This document shows, in pieces, positions 29,119 to 34,105 of a stretch of 37,172 nucleotides of DNA. Source of the DNA: Nitrospinales bacterium (GTDB taxonomy: Bacteria; Nitrospinota_A; UBA7883; JACRGQ01); contig JAHFEK010000024.1 of NCBI GenBank assembly GCA_023248495.1, positions 1 through 37,172 on the forward strand, given 5' to 3'. The translations under genes were made by a program, and so were the position numbers. The notes beneath the pieces are model-generated. The model was not told the DNA's origin and did not search any database. It worked only from the letters and a program-made list of their open reading frames with translations. Within the stretch, counting starts at the first letter, position 1; every line of letters starts with the position of its first letter.

Positions 29119-31452
29119 ATGAACAAGTGGTGGTCTGTCTTTAGAATGCCGTTGTTCCTCGCGGCTCTCTTCTTCAGTTGCGGCGCGGCGCTGCAACCGG
29201 CGGTCGCCGAAGCGGCGAAGGAATCGGGGCACGATTACCTGATATCCATCAACTACGAGCTTGGCATGCACTGCACCGGCTTCGACTTCTCCTACTGCTG
29301 CGTACTCCCCCCGTACAACTCCGTGCAGGCCCAAGTGGTGCGCAACGGCAGGCTGGACAGCGGGCCCGACAAGCTGCCGAAGGTGCTGGAAGCCGATCCG
29401 AATAACCACGAAGTGCTGGTCGACGGCAACAAGCGGTTCAAGCTGCACTACGAACATGTCGGCAACTCCTACTCCGAAGGAAACAAGATGGCGTACTGGA
29501 ACGCGCCGTACGACATCAACGGCAACGGCAACCCCTACGAGCCGAACGAGAGCGTGGCGAACGCCTACTTCCGCCACCTCTACGTCTACGCCGACCTGGC
29601 GGGATCCAATCCAAACAACACCAGCAAAGACAGTGCAAAACTGCGCGTTGGCGTCGAAATTCCGATTCCGCAGGACGCGGGGCCTTCCGGCCAGCCGGTA
29701 TCCAACGGTTTCCTCCATTACTCCGGCGATAAAGGAACCGTCGTGTTCACCAAAAGCCCGGTGCTGGACAACGTGCCGATCGTGCTGACCAACCCCGGCA
29801 TATGGGATGCGCTTGGCCTGCCGCTCACCGGCTTCTACGACAAAGACGTGGTGAAAGGAATGCTGCGGTTGGACGAAACCGATATCCAGCCCTATCAGGA
29901 AGCCAAGGTGACACTGGTCGACGAAAAGACCGGCAAAGCGGTTATCGATTCCACCACCGGCAAACCGGTGTCGTTCACCGGCACCAATCCGATCGACGTG
30001 CCGAACTGCTACAACTGCCATTCGAACGCCAACGCCAACGGCGTCCAGTTCAGCAAGTACAAGGATGAAATGAATTACTGGAAATCGGTGGGCGCATCCG
30101 ATTGGTTCGCCAGCCTGAAATCCACCGCCATTTCCATCCTGGAAATCCACGACAGCAAGCATGGCACGGAGTTCCTGAAATCGTACAACCCCAAGGCGAC
30201 CAACAACCGCCTTGGCCGCCAAGCGGTGCTGTGCCAGGATTGCCACGCGGATAACGTCATCGCAAAACTCTCCTCAAAGACGGTGGGCGAAGTGGTGCCG
30301 GGCGCCAAGGACGAAGACAAAGGGCGCGTGATTATGGCGCTGACCGAAGCGTTGCACTTCGCGCATATCAAGAACCGCCCGATGGCGGACAGCAAAGGCC
30401 GCACCGGCTCCTGCCAGGGCTGCCACCCGGCCCACCGGTATGACCGCAGCATGAAGGGCTACCCGATCACCAAGAGCGGGGAAAACGCCTTCGCCAAAGC
30501 GGACAACCGCGACGCCGCCGGCGGCTGCTTCGTGGGCCGCGACGCGCACAGCAACCCGGATACCGCCAAGCTGAAGAGCAAACAGCACCTCAACGCCGTG
30601 GGACAGTACCTCAAGGCGAATGTGTCCAACGAAGGCGGCAAATACAAGGGCATCTGGTGCACCAATTGCCACAACCAGCTTTCCCGCGAACTCTACCAGC
30701 GCGACAACCTGAAATCGGCCTTCAAGCCGGGCGAAGGGGAAACGCTGCGCAACAAGTCGCTTGCCCAGATCGCGGCAGCCATCGGCGTTGATGAAAAAAC
30801 CCTCATCGACCGCTACATCGATCCGAAGGTGACCGAGGAAGACAACGGCGTGCTGCAAACCTGGGGCAAGGTTCGCACCGTGCCGGATATCGCGGTCATC
30901 AAGATCGCCAACGGCGGCCCGGTGGCGACCAAGGATGAAGACGGCGACATCAACGTCCAGATACTTTCGGCCAATCCGAGCGACAAGATTGAAGGCGGCA
31001 TGGCAGTGCCCTACTCGGCGGCAACCAACGGACGCGATTACTGGCTCTCCGCGGGCGAACCGCACTGCGCCGACTGCCACAGCGCGCCGTTCGTCGAAGG
31101 CCAGGGCGGCGTCGCCTTCCCGATCAACCAGCCCGGCAAGTACAGCCTGATGCGGTACTCCAAAGGCCACTCCGGCCTCGCCTGCCAGGTATGCCACCAA
31201 TCGATCCACGGTCTCTATCCGGCCAACCCCAAGGTGGATCAAACCACCTTTAAGCAGGCCGCATCGATGAACGCGGACGGCAGCCACGGCCCGATTAAAT
31301 GCGCCGCCTGCCACGTGGTCAACAAAGGCGGCGTGCCGACCATCGCGGAAAAGCGCGAATACAATGGCAAGAAAATAGGGACCGATTTCGCCCTCGCGGT
31401 CGAATTCATGCACTCTATCGCCCCCGACCTTGGCGGAGCCAACCCCAAGTAA
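29119..31452 (+). CDS. Seven-heme c-type cytochrome with N-terminal beta domain
   Basis: A 777-residue exported protein with seven CxxCH heme sites: CYNCH (297), CQDCH (372), CQGCH (432), CTNCH (514), CADCH (650), CQVCH (689) and CAACH (728). The N-terminus is hydrophobic up to about residue 30; FFSCG could be a weak lipobox, or cleavage may follow AVAEA. The first 290 residues are heme-free and include ELGMHCTGFDFSYCCVLPPY, a signature I associate with uncharacterised multiheme proteins of metal- and sulfur-metabolising bacteria. I do not recognise a characterised enzyme. It has an AAGGAGG ribosome site and a strong terminator just after the stop. A role as periplasmic or outer-surface electron carrier near the Dsr system is inference. 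Confidence 0.85.
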   Translation: MNKWWSVFRMPLFLAALFFSCGAALQPAVAEAAKESGHDYLISINYELGMHCTGFDFSYCCVLPPYNSVQAQVVRNGRLDSGPDKLPKVLEADPNNHEVLVDGNKRFKLHYEHVGNSYSEGNKMAYWNAPYDINGNGNPYEPNESVANAYFRHLYVYADLAGSNPNNTSKDSAKLRVGVEIPIPQDAGPSGQPVSNGFLHYSGDKGTVVFTKSPVLDNVPIVLTNPGIWDALGLPLTGFYDKDVVKGMLRLDETDIQPYQEAKVTLVDEKTGKAVIDSTTGKPVSFTGTNPIDVPNCYNCHSNANANGVQFSKYKDEMNYWKSVGASDWFASLKSTAISILEIHDSKHGTEFLKSYNPKATNNRLGRQAVLCQDCHADNVIAKLSSKTVGEVVPGAKDEDKGRVIMALTEALHFAHIKNRPMADSKGRTGSCQGCHPAHRYDRSMKGYPITKSGENAFAKADNRDAAGGCFVGRDAHSNPDTAKLKSKQHLNAVGQYLKANVSNEGGKYKGIWCTNCHNQLSRELYQRDNLKSAFKPGEGETLRNKSLAQIAAAIGVDEKTLIDRYIDPKVTEEDNGVLQTWGKVRTVPDIAVIKIANGGPVATKDEDGDINVQILSANPSDKIEGGMAVPYSAATNGRDYWLSAGEPHCADCHSAPFVEGQGGVAFPINQPGKYSLMRYSKGHSGLACQVCHQSIHGLYPANPKVDQTTFKQAASMNADGSHGPIKCAACHVVNKGGVPTIAEKREYNGKKIGTDFALAVEFMHSIAPDLGGANPK

Positions 31453-31476
31453 GCGGGCCTTCGCGCGTATAATGAA

Positions 31477-31510
31477 ACGGCTGGCGGTTGTATGCCGCCA
31501 GCCGTTTTTT
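31477..31510 (+). terminator. Rho-independent terminator after the multiheme cytochrome
   Basis: ACGGCTGGCGG (31477-31487) and CCGCCAGCCGT (31495-31505) form a perfect 11-pair stem with a seven-base loop, followed by a run of T. Confidence 0.92.
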
Positions 31511-31527
31511 ATTTCAGGGAGAATACA

Positions 31528-32874
31528 TTGAACCACGAAGGACACGAATTGAAAAAAAAGAAAGCGTTTTCATTTTCCCTTTCTCCCCATTTGCGTCATT
31601 CGTGTCATTCGTGGTTAAAAAATCTATCCCTCCTTGCGGTTCTCTTATCCCCGCATCCCGCGATGGCTTCCGCCGATACCCCCGCCGCGAAAGTGGGCGG
31701 CCGCACCATCACCATCGAAGAACTGACCAAAACGGTGAATAGCACCCCCTACGCTTTGCCGCACGGTTCCCCCGCCACCACATCGCAAAAAACACTCGTG
31801 ATGGAAGTGCTGGGAAACATGATCGACGCCGAACTTTTATTCGGCGATGCGGTGAAGCAGGGCGTCACCGCCACCGCGGCATTCGCCGGAGAGATGAATT
31901 TGCACCAGCGCGCGCAACTGGCGGCCCTCTATCGAAAAACAATACTCGGCGCCGTTTCAATTGACGATAATGAAATCGCCCTTTTCGCAAAAGAGAAAAA
32001 GATAAAAGAAGAAGCGGCGAAGGCGCTGCTGTTGAAAAATCGCCGCCGCAAAGCAATTGAAAACGAATCGATCCGCCTGTTCGATCTCCATGCGGTCAAA
32101 TATGTTCCCACAATCGCCACGGCCGCGCTCTCTTCGTTGGTGGATGACGATATTCTGGTTTCTTCAAAATCGTTCAGCATCTACTTTAAAGATGTCAAAG
32201 GGCCGCTCGCCGAGATGGGCAACGGCAAGGACGCATTGATGGATGTTCTTGCCCAATCAGTGGAAGAGGAACTGTTCGCCGCCGCCGCGCGCGATGCGGG
32301 CCTCGATGCGGATAAGGACTATAAAGACGAGATAGCCGAAAATGGCCGCGTGCTGGCCATCGTGATTCACCGGCGCAATCTGGAAAAGCATTTTACTCCC
32401 GCCGAAAAAGAGCTAAACGCGTTTATAAAAAAGAACGGCCACCTGCGCTATACACCGCAGACCGCCGAGGTGTTGTTGATCGTCGCCAAATCAAAGCCGG
32501 AGGCCGAAGCGTTGCGGCAACGCGCCCTGAAAGGGGAAAGCTTTTATGCGCTCGCCACCGAGCATTCCATCGCGCCGAACGCCGGCATCAACGCCGGCCG
32601 CATCGAGCCGGTGCGTATCGGCGAACACCCCTACTCCCGCATCGATGAAACGCTGATGCAAATGAAACCGGAGGAAATCACGCCGCCGATCAAAGGCGGC
32701 AAAGGGTACAGCATCTTCAAACTGCTCTCCATCACCCCGCGCGAAAAGCGCGGCGCGGCGGATCTGCGGAAGGCCGCTTCGCAACTCATCATTGAAAGCC
32801 GAATGCTGAAATATCTGGAAGAACTGCGCGTGGGAAAAGACATCGCCATCTACCCCGCCGTCAACGATTTGTGA
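31528..32874 (+). CDS. Parvulin-type peptidyl-prolyl isomerase, exported
   Basis: A 448-residue SurA/PrsA-like periplasmic folding factor. The N-terminal helical chaperone part begins AAKVGGRTITIEELTKTVNS, the usual opening of such proteins. A parvulin domain lies near residues 300-400 (PQTAEVLLIVAKSKPEAEAL, GESFYALATEHS, YSRIDETLMQMKPEEITPPI), with a C-terminal helix after it. The signal peptide core is KNLSLLAVLLSPHPAMASA, but it is preceded by about 29 odd residues encoded by a palindromic repeat. TTG at 31528 has GGGAG six bases upstream and is the best start; a TTG at 31549 (after AAGGA) is an alternative. It may help fold the preceding exported cytochrome and neighbours. Confidence 0.8.
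   Translation: MNHEGHELKKKKAFSFSLSPHLRHSCHSWLKNLSLLAVLLSPHPAMASADTPAAKVGGRTITIEELTKTVNSTPYALPHGSPATTSQKTLVMEVLGNMIDAELLFGDAVKQGVTATAAFAGEMNLHQRAQLAALYRKTILGAVSIDDNEIALFAKEKKIKEEAAKALLLKNRRRKAIENESIRLFDLHAVKYVPTIATAALSSLVDDDILVSSKSFSIYFKDVKGPLAEMGNGKDALMDVLAQSVEEELFAAAARDAGLDADKDYKDEIAENGRVLAIVIHRRNLEKHFTPAEKELNAFIKKNGHLRYTPQTAEVLLIVAKSKPEAEALRQRALKGESFYALATEHSIAPNAGINAGRIEPVRIGEHPYSRIDETLMQMKPEEITPPIKGGKGYSIFKLLSITPREKRGAADLRKAASQLIIESRMLKYLEELRVGKDIAIYPAVNDL
31531..31617. repeat. Palindromic repeat inserted at the start of the isomerase gene
   Basis: Arms AACCACGAAGGACACGAAT (31531-31549) and ATTCGTGTCATTCGTGGTT (31598-31616) are inverted copies with one mismatch around a 48-base A/T-biased centre; the right arm contains TCATTCGTG twice. 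It looks like the dispersed ACCACGAAGGACACGAA-type repeats of environmental bacteria. Removing 31531-31617 (87 bases, 29 codons) leaves TTG-AAA-AAT-CTA, an ordinary start and signal peptide. Confidence 0.75.
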
Positions 32875-33771: not shown

Positions 33772-33990
33772 TCAGCGTCCCGCTTTTGCCCCTGCGAAGA
33801 AATCTTCCGCCAAGAGCAAGTATGCCGCCATCGACACGCCCGCGGCAGCGGCGCGTTTGCGTATTTGATCCTTGCGCTTCCGGTCAATTCGCATTATTAA
33901 TAGTTCCTCTTTGGCGAACTTCTTGACGATCTTTTCCGCTTCATCAGCGGTTAGCGGGGCTTCAAAAACGTTCTTTTTCAGTTTTTTCAT
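33772..33990 (-). CDS. Small RHH-like (antitoxin-like) protein
   Basis: A 72-residue basic protein. LIMRIDRKRKDQIRKRAAAA followed by GVSMAAYLL fits a ribbon-helix-helix pattern: a short beta strand with alternating polar residues, then two helices split by GVS. Such proteins are often antitoxins or autoregulators. The ATG at 33990 has GGAGGAATAGGAAT upstream. It follows the 36-codon gene by four bases, so both likely share the promoter at 34158-34186. No toxin of a known family lies beside it. Confidence 0.6.
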   Translation of the reverse strand: MKKLKKNVFEAPLTADEAEKIVKKFAKEELLIMRIDRKRKDQIRKRAAAAGVSMAAYLLLAEDFFAGAKAGR

Positions 33991-33994
33991 ATTC

Positions 33995-34105
33995 CTATTC
34001 CTCCATATCAGGTTCGGCAATCCGCTTTGCGTCGTCTACGGGCATGCCAAGGGCTAACAGTGCCTCAAACAGTCTGCCCGGCGTAATTGAGTAGCGGCTG
34101 GACAT
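33995..34105 (-). CDS. Small hypothetical protein upstream of the RHH-like gene
   Basis: A 36-residue product, MSSRYSITPGRLFEALLALG followed by MPVDDAKRIAEPDMEE. I do not recognise it. The frame can be extended to a TTG at 34132, but the TTG at 34186 is the -35 box of the promoter and cannot be a start. Its ribosome site is weak. It could be a real short partner of the RHH-like protein or the tail of a truncated gene. Confidence 0.4.
   Translation of the reverse strand: MSSRYSITPGRLFEALLALGMPVDDAKRIAEPDMEE

Follow-up and report, generated by a model that had tools for sequence, protein, structure and literature searches.

A palindromic element at the start of an isomerase gene in a Nitrospinota genome and its possible relation to GxxExxY genes

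The isomerase gene and the palindrome at its start

The window, i.e. the whole stretch of 37,172 nucleotides that was analysed, constitutes contig 19 of a Nitrospinota genome with a size of 2.57 Mb. In it, the multihaem cytochrome gene at 29119-31452 is followed on the forward strand by a terminator-like hairpin with a T-run that belongs to it (31475-31507), a Shine-Dalgarno-like AGGGAG (31516-31521), a TTG codon (31528-31530), a palindromic element located approximately 20 bases behind the hairpin, and a PpiC/SurA-like peptidyl-prolyl isomerase gene. Counted from TTG 31528 this gene extends to position 32874 and encodes 448 amino acids, of which about 29 stem from the element. Rotamase and SurA_N-type domains were found in its product (PF00639, 1.4e-08; PF13145, 1.6e-08; SurA_N_3), which is in agreement with the isomerase assignment. 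Further downstream, a small open reading frame on the reverse strand (33772-34020) has a NikA-like match (PF21983) that lies below its cut-off.

The element (31531-31616, forward strand) is bounded by terminal inverted repeats and has an AACCAC...GTGGTT core with the ends AACCACGAAGGACACGAA ... TTCGTGTCATTCGTGGTT. By an inverted-repeat search two forward-strand arms of 22 nt each were delimited, 48 nt apart and 91% complementary to each other (31528-31549, with the flanking TTG included, and 31598-31619). The RNA of positions 31525 to 31620 is predicted to fold with -30.4 kcal/mol (z -5.76), and none of 200 shuffled sequences was equally stable. The arms and the fold confirm the palindromic repeat that had been proposed in the initial annotation of this DNA. 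The palindromic core comprises 86 bases, compared to the 87 given there; the removal of 87 bases (31531-31617) restores the downstream frame. In being short, enclosed by terminal inverted repeats and free of a coding gene the element resembles a MITE.

The open frame runs from 31492 to 32874 and passes through the entire repeat, as had been claimed; it hinges on runs of eight adenines (A8, 31552-31559) and six adenines (A6, 3' of the element), where an assembly error could hide. Three in-frame TTG codons are candidate starts. TTG 31528 is preceded by AGGGAG at a spacing of 6 nt, which bears out the good ribosome site ascribed to it, but TTG 31549 has AAGGA at the same 6-nt spacing (31538-31551, forward strand, for motif, spacer and codon) and is also a plausible start that would give MKKKKAFSF...; for the third, TTG 31591, no Shine-Dalgarno motif was seen. 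Both TTG 31549 and its AAGGA are derived from the element. The hairpin starts immediately 3' of TTG 31528 and leaves AGGGAG outside its main stem, and the AAGGA of the element lies within the stem.

The element is followed on the same strand by the signal-peptide stretch KNLSLLAVLLSPHPAMASADT (31618-31680). Downstream of the element, no in-frame ATG, GTG or TTG precedes the hydrophobic core LSLLAVLL, and the next ATG (31663) is located inside the signal-peptide stretch, past the core. As no start codon is available in this interval, the element must be translated in part unless the signal peptide has been lost. If the protein is exported, this would imply translation of at least part of the repeat.

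The mature isomerase gene is under purifying selection, with dN/dS values of 0.156-0.212 in all six pairs formed from four congeners. The dN of the window branch showed no excess over that of the congener G002 with G003 as outgroup (0.057 vs 0.062) and was close to it with G001 as outgroup (0.065 vs 0.054). If the window was paired with G003 and G001 served as outgroup the window branch was longer (0.097 vs 0.031), as a sister relationship of G003 and G001 would predict.

The same site in related genomes

Isomerase orthologues were sought in 60 genomes, and the leaders of nine of them were examined. An alignment by MAFFT of the leaders of the window and its congeners put the insert in the wrong position and did not enter the results. 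The congeners G003 and G001, whose proteins are 68-75% identical to the window isomerase, have an empty site: the same cytochrome gene and terminator hairpin are followed by GCGGGAGCACC-ATG and a normal signal peptide. This supports the earlier proposal that an inserted repeat separates the signal peptide from the start region. The same extended N-terminus in distant orthologues would have spoken against such an insertion; the extension is absent from all nine orthologues.

Other palindromes do occur at this place. In G002, which is of the same genus, two features lie 5' of the ATG, namely AACCGCGAATTACAG, which is probably a single decayed arm, and a further palindrome, and in G007 a 90-base palindrome with another kind of arm ends approximately 30 bases upstream of the ATG. 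In G008, a member of a second genus (L011:1354-1560), ATGATGACTGATTT is followed by a 144-base palindrome (AACCACTGAGACACAG...GTGTCTCTGTGGCT), different from that of the window and in frame, the right end of which joins the hydrophobic core directly. The frame is open throughout, AGGAAG is found upstream of the ATGs, and the palindrome apparently forms part of the signal-peptide core. Counting the window and the nine orthologues, a clear palindrome is present at the site in three of ten cases, with three arm types and two of the three in frame. In our interpretation this place in the isomerase gene has received insertions repeatedly; that the terminator hairpin perhaps favours insertion there is a guess. 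Another palindrome was observed 3' of the isomerase gene in G003, where the flanks are too diverged for any junction to be read.

It is also conceivable, if unlikely in our judgement, that the window element is 5' untranslated sequence only, that translation begins inside or after it, and that the upstream frame is open by chance. Such elements often leave frames open anyway: in 25 of them 67 of the 150 frames are stop-free, and the length is divisible by three in 12 of the 25. A repeat that becomes coding had been regarded as a rarity, and at least for the open frame as such this does not hold. The palindrome of G007 and the probable decayed arm of G002 precede a normal ATG, two TTG codons (31549 and 31591) are available in frame, and according to the available text of Di Nocera 2013 (PMC3733652) many N-terminal REPs may be non-coding. 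However, a start at 31549 or 31591 would still translate part of the element, and with no start between the element and the hydrophobic core a later initiation would give a protein without signal peptide, unlike those of the congeners.

Distribution of the repeats and their association with GxxExxY genes

A count over the rest of the genome, as proposed in the initial annotation, found further repeats of the same kind. Among 385 genomes the exact left arm is present in five, namely the own genome, G002 and, with up to 25 copies, three that do not belong to the phylum, and a reversed control pattern of this arm had no match in the 385 genomes. A related arm, AACCACNGAGNCACNGAG, is present in 24 of the 385, with 43 copies in the congener G003. 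Only the arms, which consist of tandem units of 8-10 bases, are common to the copies, and the loops are unrelated. Among 24 genomes the arm pattern of the G007 type was found at 3 places, and that of the CAGATT type at 13 places in 6 genomes. Mobility of the repeat, as suggested earlier, we infer from the empty sites and the scatter of copies, but no movement was seen and, regarding a target-site duplication, 25 of 26 elements are without a directly abutting repeat of 2-11 bases, the remaining one having 3 bases.

In G002 three of four AACCACGAAGG copies (L036, L038 and L040, around 1450-1650) seem by eye to be nested in CCGGAAAG..GAAGAATC palindromes, and this nesting suggests a preference for palindromic targets. 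The copies at L042:1501-1596 of G002 and at L004:1292 of the own genome, the latter decayed, are apparently orthologous and would represent an old insertion that was inherited vertically. Two near-identical 93-base palindromes of G003 (L090:1501-1593 and 2704-2796), 1.2 kb apart and with similar flanks, are probably the result of a segmental duplication.

With respect to the mobilizing agent, it is highly improbable that we are dealing with a REP-like repeat moved by RAYT (Y1_Tnp) transposases. Y1_Tnp matches do occur in 17 of 24 Nitrospinota genomes, and intragenic REPs are known (PMC3733652, available text), but such arms were found at only 1 of 40 RAYT places (40 of the 47 listed places were examined), and this candidate was rejected. 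RAYT loci of this family, 103,520 bases in total, contained no two-armed element according to a finder that is stricter and also misses the G008 copy, a count that also serves as background for the three palindromes among ten isomerase leaders. The window element has 86 bases compared to the 20-40 described for REPs.

Arms of this kind were found next to GxxExxY genes, the proteins of which matched PF13366 (PD-(D/E)XK nuclease superfamily) in all three cases tested. In Nitrospinota GxxExxY genes occur in 5 of 24 genomes, and all eight loci have adjoining arm-like units on one or both sides. An inverted repeat between the flanks (score of at least 16) was present at 28 of 44 GxxExxY loci, that is at 23 of 36 plus 5 of 8 whose motif had been missed by the first script, and absent at 16; as L159 and L160 are one locus, the corrected count is 27 of 43. 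In the controls inverted repeats appeared in 12 of 3000 random intervals, in 0.06% of shuffles and in 5.9% of mixed-locus flank pairs, the last value being raised because arms are similar from locus to locus. If loci were chosen by protein score alone and not by their arms, 15 of 26 had an inverted repeat. Two tandem units per arm on both sides were found at 18 of 35 loci (9/21, 4/8 and 5/6 by subset) versus none of 3000 random intervals, in a count that left out the eight motif-missed loci and used an arm grammar composed after the data had been seen.

The arm types flanking GxxExxY genes vary and include CAGAG, CGAAG, CAGATT and CCGATGAACG (L140-L147 and L151-L186, from many bacterial families). 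The single GxxExxY gene of the own genome has arms of the CAGATT type, unlike those of the window element. The 15-base arm of the latter was seen adjoining a GxxExxY gene only in G354, where CACGAAGGACACGAA on the right agrees in 15 of 15 bases and CACGAAGAGCACGAA is found on the left. At the level of genomes, GxxExxY is present in 23 of 28 with either arm compared to 67 of 357 others (Fisher p 1e-11), and outside the phylum in 19 of 22 arm-bearing genomes compared to 66 of 339 others, whereby both variables are partly dependent, as the counts include G109 and G024 whose only arm matches are the repeats of the gene itself.

The association might also be read in the opposite direction, with the arms as old target sequences and GxxExxY genes as homing-type nuclease genes for which palindromes already in place are the entry sites. 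We regard this as rather doubtful, though less so than an entirely untranslated element, and it leaves the reading of the isomerase gene unchanged. In line with it, the copies have unrelated loops in which GxxExxY remnants are mostly lacking (one was found in only 1 of 30 unique short elements, L144), further palindromes lie nested within or around elements, and five arm-bearing genomes (G002, G007, G061, G214 and G336) have no GxxExxY match. On the other hand, the two flanks of a gene share one arm type while the types differ between loci, and truncated genes persist between intact arms. The latter are found at L144 and L147 (242 and 256 bases) and look like internal-deletion steps from full to gene-less elements.

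The 35 viral-contig stretches bearing the exact arm contained no GxxExxY gene, a protein scan of viral contigs gave no relative, and 8 of 72,556 plasmid records hold a relative, too few for a comparison of empty sites. In G010 (L141:83-790) a GxxExxY gene lies between two near-identical palindromes of approximately 138 bases, an arrangement like that of a composite element.

Proposed origin of the element and known repeat systems

On balance we favour, with some reserve, the explanation that the window palindrome is a gene-less, MITE-like miniature of a GxxExxY element, which landed in frame and extends the n-region of the isomerase signal peptide. The parent class would consist of small elements made up of a GxxExxY (PDDEXK_3) gene and two enclosing inverted repeats of tandem 8-10-base units, with the GxxExxY protein as the putative mobilizing enzyme. 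Counter-evidence comes from the CAGATT arms of the own genome's gene, the five arm-bearing genomes without a GxxExxY match, the 16 loci with no inverted repeat, the rarity of gene remnants in short elements, the viral stretches and the lack of a target-site duplication. In this lineage one copy would have entered the isomerase gene in frame, with the start codon on one side and the signal peptide on the other. Translation may then proceed from TTG 31528, or from TTG 31549 by means of the Shine-Dalgarno motif brought along by the element. The resulting pre-protein would possess a longer, lysine-bearing n-region that is partly encoded by the repeat and could still be exported, with the signal core and the mature enzyme presumably remaining functional. 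The strong hairpin just 3' of the start codon probably reduces initiation, which may lead to lower expression.

A wider idea is put forward more tentatively. GxxExxY genes together with their tandem-unit inverted repeats might be a new class of minimal mobile elements, approximately 0.42-0.67 kb in length if complete and spread over many bacterial families. The AACCAC...GTGGTT palindromes would be their gene-less derivatives, and such palindromes would have joined the signal peptide in one isomerase gene of one family twice independently.

Palindromes with these arms occur in many bacterial families, and we found no account of the agent that spreads them. In the literature searched, which excludes most subscription papers, there was likewise no account of a link between palindromes and GxxExxY (PF13366/TIGR04256/PDDEXK_3), and the arm strings were not found. 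With this link, the GxxExxY nuclease becomes a candidate enzyme for the repeats, and the repeats become its candidate substrate. If our reading is true, the repeats are stripped-down versions of a tiny and little-studied nuclease-carrying element. The isomerase gene, judged by its sequence, provides two natural cases of a repeat seemingly becoming the front of an exported protein.

Several known systems share part of these features. In their available text, PMC10969869 and PMC3733652 describe Rickettsia palindromic elements (RPE) as palindromes of approximately 100 bases that lie in frame in unrelated genes, N-terminal cases included. The window element has the in-frame insertion of a palindrome into a protein gene in common with them. 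It differs in its hosts, in that most copies found here lie outside the frames of known genes, and in the link to GxxExxY genes.

REPs within genes, N-termini included, are reported from many bacteria, and in TIR/TIRYT systems inverted repeats flank an enzyme gene, beside which repeat families without a gene exist (both in the available text of PMC3733652). Our repeats resemble GTAG/CGTC REPs as dispersed palindromes, some of which are located at the N-termini of open reading frames, and TIR/TIRYT by a flanked enzyme gene accompanied by gene-less repeats. REP/GTAG repeats are 20-40 bp hairpins associated with RAYT genes, whereas the window element is an 86-bp palindrome of a kind seen at a single one of 40 RAYT loci. 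Compared to TIR/TIRYT the gene is GxxExxY (PDDEXK_3) and not a tyrosine transposase, the elements are longer, and there is no association with RAYT.

For MITEs, larger gene-bearing relatives with like ends as well as in-frame fusions are reported in the available text of PMC10969869. The repeats agree with bacterial MITEs in their terminal inverted repeats and the lack of a gene; the GxxExxY elements would be their larger gene-bearing relatives at the level of the arm class, although the gene of the own genome has arms of another type. They differ from them in that no target-site duplication accompanies them, the loops are unrelated, and the presumed enzyme is of the nuclease type with a putative role in transposition. 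In comparison with all these systems the isomerase case is one more in-frame palindrome, and its unusual aspect is that a second independent case exists in the same gene.
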